Below are positions 8,916 through 34,801 of a stretch of DNA of 64,000 nt, piece by piece. The DNA lies in the NCBI RefSeq assembly GCF_001641125.1, contig NZ_LWLP01000001.1:442156-506155 (forward strand), given 5' to 3'. The notes below the pieces were generated by a model. That model was not told the DNA's origin, did no database searches, and saw only the letters and a program-made list of their open reading frames with translations. Numbering within the stretch: position 1 is the stretch's first letter; each line of letters opens with the position of its first letter. The translations under genes were made by a program, and so were the position numbers. This DNA comes from Arthrobacter sp. OY3WO11. Lineage in GTDB: Bacteria; Actinomycetota; Actinomycetes; Actinomycetales; Micrococcaceae.

Positions 8916-9977
8916 TCAGTGCTGTTCGCTGGCGACCGAAGACTCCCCGGCATGCTCGCGTCCAGCAAGCTGGCGGTTGAGCCCGTCCACGTCCAGGCGG
9001 CCGTTCCAGCTGGCCCAGTCCTTGGGCCGGACAGAGGGCCGGCCCAGCAGGTAGCCTTGCCCGGCGCTGATTCCGAGTTCGGTGAGGACTTTGAGTTCCC
9101 CCACGGTCTCCACACCCTCAGCCACGAGGGTGGTGCCGATCTGGTCCGCAAAGTCCACCAGGCAGGCGGCCAGGGCGCGCTGGATGCCGTCCTTGTCCAC
9201 ATCGCCGATCACGTTCCGGCCCAGCTTCAGGAAGTCCGGCCGCAGGTGCACCATCCGGCTCAGCGCCCCCGCCCCTGAATGGGTGTCGTCCACGGCGATC
9301 CTCAGTCCCCGGTCCCGCAGCGGATTGATGGCGGAAATGAACTGCGGGTATTCCTCGTCCTTGACCGTCTCCGTTATTTCGAGCACTACCCGGTCAATGG
9401 GCAGATCGATGTGATCGAACAATTCAGGCAGCCGGGGGTCCAGGCAGGAGGCGGGCGAAATGTTAAGGGACACGAACAGGTTCCCGGGAAGCGACTTCGC
9501 CGCAGCGGCCGCAGATCCCAGCGCGGCGAATTCCAGGTTCGCACCCAGGCCGACGGCGGCGGCCTCGGCAAACCACAGTTCCGCGGCAGCTCCGTCATCG
9601 CTGACGAACCGGGACAATGCCTCGACTCCCACCACGCTTTTTTCTTCCAGCCCATAGATTGGCTGGAAGGCGGTCATGAGCATCTGGCTTTCGAGCAGCG
9701 CGCTGATGCGTGACATGCTGCGGATCGCATCGATTTGCTCCGCCACTTTCGGCGGGACTGCGGGGGTAAGCCGCATTTCCCGGGCGCTCTGCAGCGTTTC
9801 CACGGTATTGGCGTCACTGCGCCGTGTATCCAGGAGATATTCGAGCAGCGCCCGTTCCGGCACTCCCGGATTTTCATCCAGGCTGTTGCTCAGCCGCTGC
9901 CGGACAGCCTCTCCGGACGGATCAGTATCCGCCAGCACAGCGGCAATAATTCCCCATGCCTGTATTCGAACCGACAT
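8916..9977 (-). CDS. EAL-domain protein (c-di-GMP phosphodiesterase-like, atypical loop 6)
   Basis: 353 residues. Residues 1-95 have no recognised domain. From about 100 on there is an EAL domain with the EAL motif (119-121), LNIS (171-174), EITE (200-203), catalytic Lys251 and the EGVET segment. The loop-6 motif that normally reads DDFGTG is DDTHSG (230-235). The two metal-binding aspartates remain but the rest of the loop is changed. That loop couples metal binding to dimerisation in characterised EAL enzymes, so activity is uncertain; it may be weak or act as a sensor. It lies in the same orientation as the GGDEF-EAL gene, 171 bases downstream of it. Confidence 0.85.
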   Translation of the reverse strand: MSVRIQAWGIIAAVLADTDPSGEAVRQRLSNSLDENPGVPERALLEYLLDTRRSDANTVETLQSAREMRLTPAVPPKVAEQIDAIRSMSRISALLESQMLMTAFQPIYGLEEKSVVGVEALSRFVSDDGAAAELWFAEAAAVGLGANLEFAALGSAAAAAKSLPGNLFVSLNISPASCLDPRLPELFDHIDLPIDRVVLEITETVKDEEYPQFISAINPLRDRGLRIAVDDTHSGAGALSRMVHLRPDFLKLGRNVIGDVDKDGIQRALAACLVDFADQIGTTLVAEGVETVGELKVLTELGISAGQGYLLGRPSVRPKDWASWNGRLDVDGLNRQLAGREHAGESSVASEQH

Positions 9978-10148
9978 TAGCTACGCCCCCAGTTGACGAA
10001 GTAATGACCCAGTGGCCCCGATGTTGTTCAATTTCCAAACGCCTTTAAATTCCGGTGTCCATGCTGAAACCTGATTTTCGCGGCGACGAAAACCAGACAC
10101 CGCACGATGATCGTATATCGCGGGAATCAAAAGCGCAGTACTTTACCC

Positions 10149-29824: not shown

Positions 29825-30523
29825 CTAGCGGAGCAGCTCCACGTCCGAGACCAGCTCGATGTGGGCCAGCATGGCCTCCGCTGCCCCCTCGGCGTCCTGG
29901 CTCCGGATGGCTTCGGCGATCTTGCGGTGCGAGGCGAGTGACTGCTCGGGCCGGCCGGGCTGGCCCAGGGATTCCATCCGCGTCTCCAGGATCATCTCCG
30001 CGATGAAAGCCATCAGCTGCGCCAGCACGGAGGAGTGCGCTGCGGCCGTGATGGCCTCGTGGAAGAGCTCATCACCGTGGACGCCGCGGTCCCCGTCCTT
30101 GATCTCCCGCGCCATGACGTCGAGGGCGTTGTCGATGGCAGCCAGGTCCTCATCGGTGCGCCGTGCCGCGGCAAGCGCGGCAAGCTTCACCTCCAGGGTG
30201 CTGCGCGCCTCGACAATTTCAGGCAGCCTGCTGCGGTGCTCGCGCAGGCCCTTGATGACGGAGGCGACGCTGGGCCGCCGCGCCAGGACTGCCCCGGTCC
30301 CGTGCTGGACGTCGATGACCCCCAGTACTTCGAGGGCCACCAGGGCCTGGGCGAGGGTTGCGCGGGAAACGCCCAAGCGCTCCGCGAGGTCACGTTCTGC
30401 CGGCAGCAGGTCGCCAGGTTTCAGCTGCGCAGATTCGATGTAGGACAGGATCTGCTCCACCAGCTGTTCATACAGCCGGGGGCGGGAAACGCGTTCAAGT
30501 CCCAGCCGTGATGCCTTCTCCAC
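29825..30523 (-). CDS. FadR-subfamily GntR transcriptional regulator (candidate MatR)
   Basis: 232 residues. The winged helix-turn-helix is around LPAERDLAERLGVSRATLAQ with the wing GVIDVQHGTGAVLA. The C-terminal all-helical FCD domain holds the acidic and histidine metal/effector ligands (FHEAITAAAHSS; SHRKIAEAI). The GTG at 30523 is chosen for its CGAGGG ribosome site. It is divergent from the MatC-like transporter operon, an arrangement like the rhizobial matR-matC pairing, so it probably regulates that operon in response to malonate or malonyl-CoA. Confidence 0.85.
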   Translation of the reverse strand: MEKASRLGLERVSRPRLYEQLVEQILSYIESAQLKPGDLLPAERDLAERLGVSRATLAQALVALEVLGVIDVQHGTGAVLARRPSVASVIKGLREHRSRLPEIVEARSTLEVKLAALAAARRTDEDLAAIDNALDVMAREIKDGDRGVHGDELFHEAITAAAHSSVLAQLMAFIAEMILETRMESLGQPGRPEQSLASHRKIAEAIRSQDAEGAAEAMLAHIELVSDVELLR

Positions 30524-30570
30524 AAAGCCCTCGCTACGTCGTCGGTCCCTCCAGAATACAGGCCGCACTA

Positions 30571-30604
30571 TTGACAGAATGACTCGGTGTCTAGGAGGCT
30601 AGTC
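30571..30604 (+). promoter_or_regulatory. Promoter/operator of the MatC-like operon
   Basis: TTGACA (30571-30576) is a good -35. Thirteen to fourteen bases on lies a dyad GTCTAG-GAGG-CTAGTC (30589-30604), 6-bp arms with one mismatch, overlapping the likely -10 region. The FadR-type regulator is divergent and may bind here. Confidence 0.45.
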
Positions 30605-30657
30605 CAGTGAGCCAGTTACTCACGTCACACTTTTCATTCCCCACTGGAGGACCAACG

Positions 30658-32025
30658 ATGTCCGCTCCTGTTTTATCGATCATCATCCTGGCGGCGATGT
30701 TCCTGCTCGCCACCGTCCTGCCCCTGAACATGGGCGCGCTCGCCTTCGTTGGCGCCTTCCTCCTGGGCGCCGTGGTGCTGGGCATGTCCACCAATGACAT
30801 CCTGGCCAACTTCCCCGGCGGGCTGTTCCTGACCATCGTCGGCGTTACGTACCTCTTCGCCATCGCCCAGAACAACGGCACCATCGATCTCCTGGTCCGG
30901 GGGGCCGTCAGGATGGTGGGAAGCCGTGTTGCACTGATTCCCTGGGTCATGTTCGCTGTCACTGCCGTCATTACCTCGGTGGGCGCACTGTCTCCCGCCG
31001 CCGTCGCCATCATCGCCCCCATCGCCCTCAGCTTCGCGGGCAAGTACAAAATCAACCCACTGCTGATGGGCATGATGGTGATCCACGGTGCGCAGGCCGG
31101 CGGGTTCTCTCCCATCGCCGTCTACGGCGTCACGGTAAACGGCATCCTGGCCAAGACCGACCTCGACTTCAGCCCCACCGCGCTGTTCCTGTCCAGCCTC
31201 GTGTTCAACCTCATCATCGCCGTGGTCCTCTTTGTTGTCCTTGGCGGGCGGAAGCTGCTGTCCTCCCGCGTAAGCCACTTCGTGGAGCAGGCCGCGGAGG
31301 CGCGGATGTCAGTCAGCGTCGGCGCCAAGGCCGGCTCCGATGTTCCCTTCAAGGGGTTCGGCTCCGGCATGTACGGCCCCCGGGATCCGGCAGGCGACGG
31401 CGTGGCGGCCACCAAGGAGCGCTCCGACCGCGTCCCGCAGCTGGTCACCATTGCCGGCCTCATCGCCCTGGCTGTCATCGCCCTCGGCTTCAAGGTCGAC
31501 GTCGGATTTGTCTCCATCACCATCGCGATCGTGCTGGCGCTGGTTTCACCGGCCGCCCAGAAGGGTGCCATCAACAAGATCAGCTGGTCCACCGTGCTGC
31601 TCATTTGCGGCATGCTGACATTCGTCGGGGTGCTGGAGGAGGCCGGAACCATCGAGTTCGTCTCCAACGGCGTGGCCGGGCTGGGAATGCCGCTGCTGGC
31701 GGCTCTGCTGATCTGCTACATCGGTGCCGTGGTGTCCGCCTTTGCTTCGTCCACAGCCATCCTCGCAGCCCTCATCCCGCTCGCCGTCCCGTTCCTTTCC
31801 ACCGGCGAAATCGGCGCTGTCGGCGTGATCTGCGCCCTGGCCGTGGCCTCCACCATCGTGGATGTTTCGCCTTTCTCCACCAACGGTGCCCTGGTCCTTG
31901 CCAACGCTCCCGAAAGCGTGGACAAGGACCGGTTCTACAAACAGATCCTGGGCTACAGCGGCGTGGTGATTGTGGCCGGGCCTGTGCTGGCCTGGCTCGC
32001 ACTGGTGGTCCCCGGCTGGCTCTAG
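30658..32025 (+). CDS. MatC-like malonate/dicarboxylate carrier (SLC13/IT superfamily)
   Basis: 455 residues, about 12 membrane helices. It follows the rhizobial malonate carrier MatC closely as I recall it: ATVLPLNMGALAFVGAFLLG, FPGGLFLTIVGVTYLFAIAQ, NNGTIDLLV, IPWVMF, GMMVIHGAQAGGFSPI, and FASSTAILAALIPLAVPF with SPFSTNGALVLANAP. The MatC N-terminal domain and the two inverted repeats are complete. The start at 30658 has GGAGGA 6 bases before it. First gene of a three-gene operon with a CoA-transferase and a carboxyltransferase. Substrate inferred as malonate. Confidence 0.85.
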   Translation: MSAPVLSIIILAAMFLLATVLPLNMGALAFVGAFLLGAVVLGMSTNDILANFPGGLFLTIVGVTYLFAIAQNNGTIDLLVRGAVRMVGSRVALIPWVMFAVTAVITSVGALSPAAVAIIAPIALSFAGKYKINPLLMGMMVIHGAQAGGFSPIAVYGVTVNGILAKTDLDFSPTALFLSSLVFNLIIAVVLFVVLGGRKLLSSRVSHFVEQAAEARMSVSVGAKAGSDVPFKGFGSGMYGPRDPAGDGVAATKERSDRVPQLVTIAGLIALAVIALGFKVDVGFVSITIAIVLALVSPAAQKGAINKISWSTVLLICGMLTFVGVLEEAGTIEFVSNGVAGLGMPLLAALLICYIGAVVSAFASSTAILAALIPLAVPFLSTGEIGAVGVICALAVASTIVDVSPFSTNGALVLANAPESVDKDRFYKQILGYSGVVIVAGPVLAWLALVVPGWL

Positions 32026-32076
32026 CCCGCATCCGCATCCGAACCTTCCCGCTGTCATGAGAAAAGGAACCAGCGC

Positions 32077-33291
32077 ATGAGCAGAACCGATAGTACGCAA
32101 GGCCCCCTCTCCGGCCACCTCGTTGTCGACCTGAGCCGGGCCCTTGCCGGACCGCATGCCGCCATGATGCTGGCGGACCTGGGAGCGCGCGTCATCAAGG
32201 TGGAGAACCCGGGCGCCGGCGACGACACCCGCGGCTGGGGCCCGCCGTTTGTTGGCCCCGAGGATGACCTCCAGTCCACCTATTTCATGTCCTGCAACCG
32301 CAACAAGGAATCCATCAGCCTGGACCTGAAGAGCGGCGACGGCCAGGCCGTGCTGCGGCGGCTGCTGGAGCGCGCGGATGTGGTGATCGAGAATTTCCGC
32401 CCCGGCGTCATGGACCGGCTGGGCTTCTCCACGGCCGCCATGCACGGGATCAACCCCCGGCTGGTGGTCCTCTCCATCACCGGCTTCGGCCACGACGGTC
32501 CCGAGTCCCAGCGCAGCGGCTACGACCAGATCCTCCAGGGCGAGGCGGGGCTGATGTCCCTCACCGGTTCCGGGCCCACGGATCCCCAGCGCGTTGGCGT
32601 CCCCATCGCGGACCTCCTCGCCGGCATGAACGGCGCCTCCGGGGTGCTGGCGGCCCTGGTTGAACGGGGCCGGACGGGCCACGGGCAGGTGGTGCGGACG
32701 TCGTTGCTGGCGTCACTGATCGGGGTGCACGCCTTCCAGGGGACCCGCACCACGGTGGCGGGCGAAGTTCCGCAGGCCCAGGGCAACCACCATCCGTCCA
32801 TTGCCCCCTACGGGCTGTTCGCCTGCCGGAGCGGGAGCGTGCAGATCAGCGTCGGCAGCGAAAGGCTCTGGGCCTCCTTCGCGGCCGCCTTCGGCCTGGA
32901 CCCGGCGGCGCCGGGCTTTGCCAGCAATGCTGAAAGGGTGCGGAACCGCGCCGGGGTGATTGCCGCCGTCGAGCGCGTCTTTGCTGACTATGAGGCAGCG
33001 GAACTGCTGCAGAAACTGAACGACGCCGGGATCCCGGCAGGCAAGGTGCGCTCGCTTGACGAGGTGTACGCGTGGGAGCAGGTGGCGTCCCAGGGCCTCG
33101 TGGTGGACGTGGAACACCCGCTGCTCGGCAAGGTCAGCCTCCCCGGCCCGCCACTGAGGTTCTTTGCCCCGGGAGACGCCGCTGAAACCACGCTTACCGA
33201 ACACGACGCGCCGCCCCTCCTGGACGAGGACGGTCAGGACATCCGCCAGTGGCTGGGCATGGCAGCCACCGTGACGGCCGGGGCGCAATAG
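32077..33291 (+). CDS. CaiB/BaiF-family (type III) CoA-transferase
   Basis: 404 residues. The N-terminal pattern VDLSRALAGPHAAMMLADLGA with VIKVENPGAGDDTR, then NRNKESISLDLKS, is typical of class III CoA-transferases. The catalytic Asp, carried in GVPIADLLAG, is at about 179. Such enzymes move CoA between carboxylic acids. Placed between a malonate-type carrier and a carboxyltransferase, it could make malonyl-CoA from malonate and another acyl-CoA. It starts 51 bases after the carrier and ends 1 base before the next gene. Confidence 0.88.
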   Translation: MSRTDSTQGPLSGHLVVDLSRALAGPHAAMMLADLGARVIKVENPGAGDDTRGWGPPFVGPEDDLQSTYFMSCNRNKESISLDLKSGDGQAVLRRLLERADVVIENFRPGVMDRLGFSTAAMHGINPRLVVLSITGFGHDGPESQRSGYDQILQGEAGLMSLTGSGPTDPQRVGVPIADLLAGMNGASGVLAALVERGRTGHGQVVRTSLLASLIGVHAFQGTRTTVAGEVPQAQGNHHPSIAPYGLFACRSGSVQISVGSERLWASFAAAFGLDPAAPGFASNAERVRNRAGVIAAVERVFADYEAAELLQKLNDAGIPAGKVRSLDEVYAWEQVASQGLVVDVEHPLLGKVSLPGPPLRFFAPGDAAETTLTEHDAPPLLDEDGQDIRQWLGMAATVTAGAQ

Positions 33292-33292
33292 C

Positions 33293-34801
33293 ATGCCGAC
33301 GGCGGAAAAGGTGCGGCACCTGAGCGCGGCTGAACTGCTGGACAACGTGGTGGACGGGGGCTCCTTCGTCTCCTGGGATGTGCCGGCACAGGAACCCGAG
33401 GTCTCCGCAGAGTACTGCCGCGACCTGGCAAAGGCCCGGGAGCGCAGCGGGACTGACGAATCCGTGATCACGGGCGCGGGGCTCATCAGGGGCCGCCGGG
33501 TGGCGGTGATCGTCAGCGAATTCTCGTTCCTGGCCGGTTCCATCGGCCACGCGGCGGCAGAGCGGATCGTAGCCGCCGTCGAGCGGGCCACCGCAGAGGG
33601 GCTGCCGCTGCTCGCCGGCCCGGCCTCGGGCGGCACGCGCATGCAGGAAGGGACACTGGCCTTCCTGTCCATGGTGAAGATCACCGGGGCCGTGCGGGCA
33701 CACCGCCAGGCCGGGCTTCCGTACCTCGTCTACCTGCGGCACCCCACCACCGGCGGCGTCATGGCCTCCTGGGGGTCCCTGGGCCACATCAACGTGGCCG
33801 AGCCCGGGGCATTGCTGGGGTTCCTCGGCCCCCGGGTTTACGAGGCGCTGTACGGGGAGGCTTTCCCTGCAGACGTGCAAACCGCCGAGAACCTGTTCAA
33901 CAAGGGACTGATCGACGGCGTGGTGGAGCCGGACCAGCTTGCCGACCTTGTGGCCCGGGCCCTGGACATCCTTTGCGGGGAGAAGGCCGCCGTTCCTCCG
34001 GCGCCCGCGACGCTCGCGGTGAGGCCCGCTGCTGCGGACGCCTGGACCTCCATCGGCATTTCCCGCCATCCCAAGCGTCCCGACCTGCGGCAGCTCCTGA
34101 AATATGGTGCCGTTGATGCGCTGCCGCTCAACGGGACGGGCCAGGGGGAGAAGGACCCCGGGCTGCTGCTGGCCCTGGCGCGCTTCGGCGGGCAGTCCTG
34201 CATCGTCCTGGGGCACGCCCGCCCGCTGCGCAAGGACGCCGCCGGCATGGGTCCCGGTTCCCTGCGGGAAGCCCGGCGCGGCATGAAACTTGCGGAGGAG
34301 CTGCGGCTGCCGCTGCTCACCGTCATCGATACCGCGGGTGCCGCGCTCTCGCAGGAGGCGGAAGAAGGCGGGCTGGCGGGAGAGATAGCGCGGTCCCTGC
34401 ACGAACTTATCGGGCTGGCGGCTCCGTCAGTCTCGGTGCTGCTGGGCCAGGGATCCGGGGGAGGGGCGCTGGCGCTGCTGCCCGCTGACAGGACCATCGC
34501 GGCGCAGCACGGCTGGCTGTCCCCGCTGCCCCCCGAGGGGGCCAGCGCCATCGTGCACCGCACGGTGGAGCATGCTCCAGCGATGGCCCAGGCGCAGGGA
34601 GTGAATGTGGCGTCCCTTTACGCCCACGGCCTGGTGGACCACATTGTGGACGAGCGCGATGATGCCTCGCTGGAACCACGTGAGTTCTGCCGGCGGATGG
34701 CCCAGGCCATCGAATATGAGCTGGCATCGATCGCCGGTCTTCCCGTGCAGGGGCTCATTGCCGCGCGGTCCGCGAAGTACCGCACCCTCGGCGCACGGTG
34801 A
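33293..34801 (+). CDS. Fused carboxyltransferase (AccD-AccA type)
   Basis: 502 residues carrying both halves of an acyl-CoA carboxyltransferase in one chain. The N-half has GPASGGTRMQEGT and HPTTGGVMASWGSLGHI oxyanion-hole glycines. The C-half (from about 280) has VIDTAGAALS and GQGSGGGALALLPAD. The N-terminal C4 zinc ribbon of bacterial AccD is absent. No biotin carboxylase or biotin carrier gene is in the window. It might act as a decarboxylase, like the MdcD/MdcE carboxyltransferase pair of malonate decarboxylase, rather than in fatty-acid synthesis. The start is 1 base after the CoA-transferase stop. Confidence 0.82.
   Translation: MPTAEKVRHLSAAELLDNVVDGGSFVSWDVPAQEPEVSAEYCRDLAKARERSGTDESVITGAGLIRGRRVAVIVSEFSFLAGSIGHAAAERIVAAVERATAEGLPLLAGPASGGTRMQEGTLAFLSMVKITGAVRAHRQAGLPYLVYLRHPTTGGVMASWGSLGHINVAEPGALLGFLGPRVYEALYGEAFPADVQTAENLFNKGLIDGVVEPDQLADLVARALDILCGEKAAVPPAPATLAVRPAAADAWTSIGISRHPKRPDLRQLLKYGAVDALPLNGTGQGEKDPGLLLALARFGGQSCIVLGHARPLRKDAAGMGPGSLREARRGMKLAEELRLPLLTVIDTAGAALSQEAEEGGLAGEIARSLHELIGLAAPSVSVLLGQGSGGGALALLPADRTIAAQHGWLSPLPPEGASAIVHRTVEHAPAMAQAQGVNVASLYAHGLVDHIVDERDDASLEPREFCRRMAQAIEYELASIAGLPVQGLIAARSAKYRTLGAR

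Follow-up and report, generated by a model that had tools for sequence, protein, structure and literature searches.

A conserved four-gene unit of Arthrobacter predicted to catabolise malonate by CoA transfer and biotin-free malonyl-CoA decarboxylation

We analysed a 64,000-nucleotide stretch of the genome of Arthrobacter sp. OY3WO11 (the window; contig NZ_LWLP01000001.1, positions 442,156 to 506,155 of the forward strand), in which four adjacent genes probably catabolise malonate by CoA transfer followed by biotin-free decarboxylation of malonyl-CoA. The genome comprises 4.52 Mb in three contigs, and the closest named relatives of the locus belong to Pseudarthrobacter and Arthrobacter. A first-pass annotation, made from the DNA letters alone, had placed a regulator, a carrier, a CoA-transferase and a carboxyltransferase here, and all four were confirmed at their positions:

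29825-30568, minus strand: regulator of the GntR family, FCD subfamily, divergent from the carrier (PF07729 100 bits, PF00392 58 bits)
30658-32025, plus strand: MatC-type dicarboxylate carrier (PF07158 MatC_N 198 bits, PF03600 (CitMHS) 105 bits), frame open from GTG 30607
32077-33291, plus strand: class III (CaiB-type) CoA-transferase, predicted malonate CoA-transferase (PF02515 391 bits)
33293-34801, plus strand: one-chain AccD-AccA-type carboxyltransferase, predicted malonyl-CoA decarboxylase (PF01039 173 bits, PF03255 157 bits), AccD-like at residues 12-226 and AccA-like at residues 249-501

We refer to the CaiB-type CoA-transferase as the transferase and to the one-chain carboxyltransferase as the CT. 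The transferase starts 51 bases downstream of the carrier, and the ATG of the CT lies one base past the transferase stop codon, just as had been annotated. For the carrier, ATG 30658, with GGAGGA ahead of it, is a more likely start than 30607; counted in the frame listed from 30607, the MatC_N match runs from residue 18 onward.

The arrangement was compared across the best 80 of 252 confirmed relatives of the four-gene locus. The order of a GntR gene on the minus strand followed by MatC, the transferase and the CT was kept in 72 of these 80 named loci from Micrococcaceae and Microbacteriaceae, including Arthrobacter, Pseudarthrobacter, Cryobacterium, Tersicoccus, Marisediminicola and Paeniglutamicibacter, and the window's outer neighbours were conserved in the nearest relatives only. 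Because the order was kept so widely, also where the flanking genes differed, it goes beyond chance, and the four genes are a conserved unit. Eight loci departed from it (L004, L013, L018, L049, L055, L061, L067 and L071), with L018 and L071 interrupted by a contig end. At L004 (Pseudarthrobacter oxydans USM2, around 9843-10001) the carrier and transferase were gone and a GntR remnant ran directly into the CT, an arrangement due to deletion or to an assembly effect; that genome held no other close transferase. At L055 (10001-11488) and L067 (10001-11485), from two Cryobacterium species, a lone CT stood beside a gene that looked by eye like a monooxygenase, and a genome-wide search found no close transferase.

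The carrier points to malonate as the substrate. It had been said to follow rhizobial MatC closely, and the likeness amounts to 56% identity over 453 amino acids to the carrier of the matRABC cluster of Rhizobium leguminosarum bv. trifolii TA1. That cluster, on a plasmid, runs from a GntR regulator through malonyl-CoA decarboxylase and malonyl-CoA synthase to the carrier, which is annotated as a hypothetical protein; Rhizobium sp. BT03 has the same cluster order with the carrier annotated as an SLC13 permease. A passage of one paper has Rhizobium trifolii MatC in use as a malonate importer (PMC12303837). The window unit has in common with matRABC the carrier family, the divergent GntR-type regulator and a predicted malonyl-CoA intermediate, but it has the AccDA-type CT and the class III transferase instead of MatA and MatB, so that it would save the ATP that a synthetase uses. 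Two exchanges of parts at related loci also fit malonate. L122 codes for a MatB-like enzyme (36% over 494 aligned positions) in place of the transferase, on the opposite strand between a broken MatC and the CT, and in L133 a TctA/TctC tricarboxylate-type carrier stands in the MatC position.

Judged by its sequence, the CT is of AccDA type by descent, and it falls under every curated cut-off (AccD 178 bits versus 317, AccA 155 versus 300, MdcD 43 versus 278, MdcE 25 versus 237). The likeness to the MdcD/MdcE pair that was first drawn therefore survives as an analogy but not as family membership. A tree of 107 CT rows, built by a quick method with midpoint rooting, with only SH-aLRT (Shimodaira-Hasegawa-like approximate likelihood ratio test) values as support and with two row pairs identical, split 95 rows from 12 fused AccDA-type rows with a support of 100. 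Within the 95-row clade, MatC and barbiturase contexts were interleaved, and transferase-linked loci (L132, L133, L134 and L137) stood at the deepest branches. The zinc ribbon was indeed missing, as no zinc-ribbon family was called in the window CT, and the double C..C zinc-ribbon motif occurred in 0 of 94 clade rows versus 5 of 12 outgroup rows. Biotin carboxylase (47-48% identity) adjoined 6 of the 12 outgroup rows, L103 and L138 being the same place and L113 a partial match of 81 residues, and none of the clade loci examined, in a comparison in which the stretches differ in length. Housekeeping fused AccDA proteins (L103, which is L138, L105, L107 and L108) have the same one-chain AccD-AccA architecture but carry a zinc-ribbon motif and an adjacent biotin carboxylase, and are 32-34% identical to the window CT.

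The AccA-like half also sets the clade apart. Trp408 was present in 95 of 95 clade rows versus 0 of 12 outgroup rows. All 12 outgroup rows have Val at the position of Pro411, which 94 of the 95 clade rows share, and all 12 have either Pro or Cys at the position of Leu352, which 88 of the 95 clade rows share. In the counterpart loops of MdcE, Gln100, Tyr102 and Ser142 are thought to contact the malonyl group, and MdcD-MdcE is able to decarboxylate malonyl-CoA, according to passages of PMC5534430; the MdcE residues were located by position count along the protein chain. The changed loops would be consistent with a loss of biotin and are not proof of it. The simpler idea that the DxPGxxPG loop was lost in the clade was rejected, as 32 of 95 rows retain Pro at its third position and the groups are separated by the positions given above alone, and a structure model of the CT was set aside as too poor (mean predicted local distance difference score 61.6, from 12 close sequences). 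We favour a decarboxylase over a carboxylase because the CT forms a separate clade, lacks the zinc-ribbon motif, has no biotin carboxylase neighbour and has changed AccA-half loops.

One subgroup of the clade is mycobacterial in type and without the transferase (L125, L128, L129, L130 and L189). These loci are 55-59% identical to the window CT, have no adjacent transferase or carrier, and have enoyl-CoA hydratase and PrrA/PrrB or CtpE nearby. By the gene order of the tubercle bacillus (echA6, prrA/prrB, ctpE), we take these loci of family f6 to be AccD3 (Rv0904c; M. smegmatis MSMEG_5642). Two genomes, G074 and G560, each carry an AccD3-type copy plus a GntR-MatC-CaiB-CT copy. No binding partner of mycobacterial AccD3 emerged from the assay described in passages of PMC4347857. 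Passages of PMC5311964 state that M. smegmatis without AccD3 has undisturbed fatty acid and mycolic acid synthesis, that the function of AccD3 'awaits further study', and that this species has a second accD3 homologue, MSMEG_2169. We count the missing partner and the undisturbed synthesis in favour of a decarboxylase as well. In deep-branching genomes of the clade, a crotonase gene and a gene that looked by eye like a TauE-like permease recur downstream of the CT (L133:8230-9947 and L136:7975-9680).

The malonate reading gained independent support because the CaiB/CT pair also sits in barbiturase operons, whose pathway ends in malonate. Gene contexts were tallied around the CT in 79 fetched clade rows, which represent 78 distinct places (L140 and L141 being one) and omit L138, an outgroup locus, and L139, which is without a CT. 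The transferase adjoined the CT in 40 of the 79 rows, and there were 17 rows with MatC, 16 with GntR, 12 with HyuA, 14 with HyuB, 13 with barbiturase, 15 with carbamate kinase, 1 with TctA and 0 with biotin carboxylase; counted by distinct place, the transferase adjoined the CT in 39 and MatC was found in 16, the numbers for HyuB, carbamate kinase, barbiturase and biotin carboxylase staying the same. The pair lay near HyuA, HyuB, carbamate kinase or a ring-opening amidohydrolase in 17 of the 40 transferase rows, and the fullest loci hold all four of these consecutively. Near 4 transferase rows there was an amidase like that of L132, one row had a nucleobase permease nearby, and L165 has MatC, the transferase, the CT, carbamate kinase and barbiturase all present. 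Domain searches confirmed the families for representatives of L171, L174 and L132. The ring-opening enzyme of L171 scored 659 bits to PDB 5hwe, a barbiturase, versus 315 with the top-scoring cyanuric acid hydrolase; cyanuric acid degradation was rejected for this locus by that match, though the enzyme exceeds the cut-off of the NCBIfam cyanuric acid model as well. The barbiturase and ureidomalonase route described by Soong and others reportedly ends in malonate. The presence of HyuA/HyuB and carbamate kinase suggests that ureidomalonate breakdown may involve an ATP-linked or carbamoyl-phosphate step. The gene order HyuA-HyuB-CaiB-CT-carbamate kinase-barbiturase was seen in operons at L171:3413-14130, L174:6639-15400 and L160:2138-12166.

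The association extends beyond these loci. The CT was matched in 53 of 296 genomes of a phylum sample (E <= 1e-60) and in 136 of 394 genomes of a class sample (E <= 1e-100). The same 394 class genomes held a barbiturase-family gene (E <= 1e-30) in 80 cases, with both genes in 56, the CT alone in 80, barbiturase alone in 24 and neither in 234. Barbiturase-family genes thus occurred in 56 of 136 CT genomes versus 24 of the 258 others (odds ratio 6.8, Fisher p 3e-13, kinship uncorrected), and in 21 genomes from 8 families the two genes were at most 12 kb apart. Two unrelated contexts, one malonate-importing and one malonate-making, have the CaiB/CT pair in common. As far as titles, the openings of abstracts and some passages of the open-licence literature go, no paper was recognised as describing a malonate route of CaiB plus carboxyltransferase or a CT beside barbiturase. 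The first-pass proposal of import, CoA transfer and decarboxylation was borne out in part: malonate as the predicted substrate is well supported by context, namely the barbiturase operons, the exchanges in L122 and L133 and the rhizobial carrier. The predicted direction is likewise well supported by context, and both enzyme activities, the CoA donor, biotin independence and regulation stand as predictions.

The transferase has the CaiB family fold and the conserved aspartate. Asp179 was retained in 116 of 116 aligned relatives, and by analogy with formyl-CoA transferase we take it to be the catalytic Asp. The closest curated models were succinate-glutarate and oxalate CoA-transferase, all below cut-off. 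The window protein has the class III family, the aligned Asp and, as predicted, a dicarboxylate substrate in common with SUGCT (succinate-glutarate/HMG) and oxalate CoA-transferases, but at 313 bits versus a cut-off of 750 it is not the same equivalog as SUGCT. The reaction predicted for it corresponds to malonate CoA-transferase activity (EC 2.8.3.3), which a passage of PMC8307300 reports for Pseudomonas ovalis with no KEGG number given. CoA transfer to malonate is a known reaction; the gene and its partner would be new. The activity in Pseudomonas ovalis, we presume, may have been that of Mdc.

We also surveyed the strain's own genome for the enzymes that the unit would do without. The window was described as free of biotin carboxylase, and none of the genome's six Biotin_carb_C places lies inside it (a biotin carrier alone was not searched for). 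Two other carboxyltransferases occur in the genome, which we would label PCC-like and MCC-like. The MatA-type decarboxylase (PF05292) had no match in this genome, with the controls silent; the same model did match in 4 of the 394 class genomes. MatB was not among the four genes, and the best genome match to NF005702 reached 305.6 bits versus a cut-off of 558, which 0 of 14 controls passed either. No strong MdcE was found, the sole weak match being at 3.2e-4, and a barbiturase-family gene had no match in the genome.

In the route we propose, malonate would enter through the MatC-type carrier and would likely be activated to malonyl-CoA by the CaiB-type protein, with acetyl-CoA or succinyl-CoA as the CoA donor. 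The AccD-AccA-type protein would then likely split malonyl-CoA into acetyl-CoA and CO2, a step for which it would need no biotin. If acetyl-CoA were the donor, malonate would become acetate and CO2 while acetyl-CoA is regenerated, which would amount to the Mdc cycle run on free CoA. The divergent promoter would be controlled by the GntR/FCD protein in response to malonate or malonyl-CoA, and in the barbiturase-type operons malonate formed inside the cell from pyrimidines would feed the same CaiB/CT pair. Like Mdc (MdcA transferase, MdcC carrier protein and MdcD-MdcE), the unit would join a transferase to a decarboxylase of carboxyltransferase fold, with a predicted conversion of malonate to acetate and CO2. 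Unlike Mdc, which works on MdcC, it is predicted to work on free CoA; its transferase is of another family, its CT is closer to AccD/AccA than to MdcD/MdcE, and no MdcB, MdcC, MdcG or MdcH is found among the four genes (the genome was not searched for these). By the features compared, the unit appears to belong to neither Mdc nor MatABC. At L204 (511-2774) of the actinobacterial genome G074 we observed a fused one-chain MdcD-MdcE, a protein distinct from the window CT, with a gene that looked by eye MdcG-like behind it; this genome also has two CT copies.

Three other explanations have to be weighed. If the CT depended on biotin after all, malonate would still be the substrate, and the enzyme would pass the carboxyl of malonyl-CoA to a biotin carrier encoded elsewhere, with a housekeeping biotin carboxylase running in reverse or another acyl-CoA as the acceptor. 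The six Biotin_carb_C places for only two other carboxyltransferases would agree with this variant, as would the SGGxRMQEG-type motif of the AccD half and the glycine-rich GxGxGG-type motif of the AccA half, which are common to the clade and the fused AccDA-type outgroup. We nevertheless consider it rather unlikely, given the absence of biotin carboxylase beside the clade loci examined, the changed AccA-half loops and the lack of a bound partner of AccD3 (PMC4347857), none of which is proof. Very improbable, in our judgement, is an ordinary acyl-CoA carboxylase subunit that makes malonyl-CoA or another carboxylated CoA ester, with the carrier and transferase serving another dicarboxylate. AccD and AccA are the best curated models of the CT, and acetyl-CoA carboxylase subunit is a frequent name for its relatives in the source databases (among the 120 matches listed). 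These model scores are far below the cut-offs, however, the genome has other carboxyltransferases, and neither a zinc-ribbon motif nor a biotin carboxylase neighbour goes with the CT. Moreover, the gene contexts supply malonate, whose activated form is the product of such an enzyme and not its substrate.

The same chemistry might instead be directed at a 2-substituted malonate, for example thymine-derived methylmalonate, and malonate itself would then be a secondary substrate. Barbiturase pathways also process 5-methylbarbiturate from thymine, which would lend this some weight, and the transferase-CT pair of the Rhodococcus locus L215 amid aromatic-type catabolic genes allows for other sources or substrates. 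We regard a substituted malonate as distinctly unlikely, since the carrier is 56% identical to that of a malonate operon and Rhizobium trifolii MatC is, in the passage cited above, used as a malonate importer (PMC12303837). L215 (1-15365) lies on a plasmid of Rhodococcus sp. USK13, and its aromatic-type cluster hints that malonate or a related acid may also arise in another way.

Several observations weigh against malonate catabolism by CoA transfer and biotin-free decarboxylation. The genome has six biotin carboxylase domains outside the window, which could supply a biotin partner. At the thresholds used, 24 of the 80 barbiturase-family genomes were without a CT, and the stretches fetched for 11 of the 40 transferase rows lacked both MatC/Tct and pyrimidine genes. 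We dropped mutual exclusion with the known systems as an argument. MatA was found in 4 of the 394 class genomes, none with a CT, and with so few MatA genomes this is uninformative (p 0.30); of the 3 genomes among the 394 with MdcE above 100 bits, two have a CT as well, so that the systems are not exclusive. The likeness of the regulator to MatR is no more than 29%. Malonate kit tests of relatives, which are not tied to the genes, were mixed in the passages that report them: Arthrobacter pokkalii was positive, six comparison strains were negative, and Paenarthrobacter lasiusi was negative. CT matches with in-frame stops also occur in the class sample. They were seen in G344, G329, G387, G381, G596, G635, G612 and G543 and are possibly decaying genes.

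The transferase is also missing from a number of CT genomes. We searched 18 genomes, 15 of them picked for a CT place without an adjacent transferase (G074, G560 and G393 have one), and found a close transferase (63-66%) in 7; in the remaining 11, nothing closer than paralogues of at most 43% turned up. In favour of the pairing, in G632, G450 and G476, where MatC adjoins the CT without an adjacent transferase, a transferase of 63-64% was present elsewhere in the genome and paralogues reached at most 40%; in G565 a transferase of 64% with one in-frame stop lay about 7.4 kb from a barbiturase gene. No close transferase was found in G664, G665 and G666 (the genomes of the two Cryobacterium loci L055 and L067 and of P. 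oxydans L004), nor in the 2.5 Mb metagenome-assembled genome G667. In genomes without a transferase, the decarboxylase could act on malonyl-CoA from other sources.

It is a tentative but serious prospect that the AccD3-type CTs of actinobacteria, which have long carried the annotation of acyl-CoA carboxylase subunits, are biotin-independent malonyl-CoA decarboxylases, that their CaiB partner is the missing malonate CoA-transferase gene, and that together they form a third malonate route serving both import and the breakdown of pyrimidines through barbiturate. If this were true, an orphan carboxyltransferase family present in 136 of the 394 sampled class genomes would have a function, and malonate CoA-transferase, an activity without a KEGG number in the passage cited above (PMC8307300), would have a gene. 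The oxidative pyrimidine pathway would be extended past malonate, and malonate catabolism would have a route distinct from the two textbook ones. Besides MdcD-MdcE, there would be a second case in which a biotin-dependent enzyme fold gave rise to a decarboxylase, and the label 'acetyl-CoA carboxylase subunit' would be wrong for many relatives.

The regulator likely starts at GTG 30523. It had been compared to MatR, and the parallel holds for its divergent orientation and its GntR/FCD type but hardly for its sequence, with 29% identity to the GntR protein of the rhizobial matRABC cluster. Between regulator and carrier lies a conserved block, identified in an alignment of 72 intergenic regions including that of the window:

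30571-30623, plus strand: conserved divergent promoter/operator candidate
30571-30576, plus strand: TTGACA, within the candidate
30581-30591: inverted repeat GAC-N5-GTC, within the candidate
30593-30602: AGGAGGCTAG, within the candidate
30607-30623: inverted repeat GTGAG-N7-CTCAC, within the candidate

Mean column identity was 0.89-0.91 at 30586-30615 versus 0.50-0.78 in other 20-base windows, and the block 30571-30623 is a candidate operator. A sigma-70 promoter scan did not have the conserved TTGACA among its matches, and no second hexamer was therefore assigned. Outside the CT clade, two loci with fused AccDA-type genes and no zinc-ribbon motif, L106 and L110, have an adjacent GntR gene that is 47-52% identical to the window regulator.

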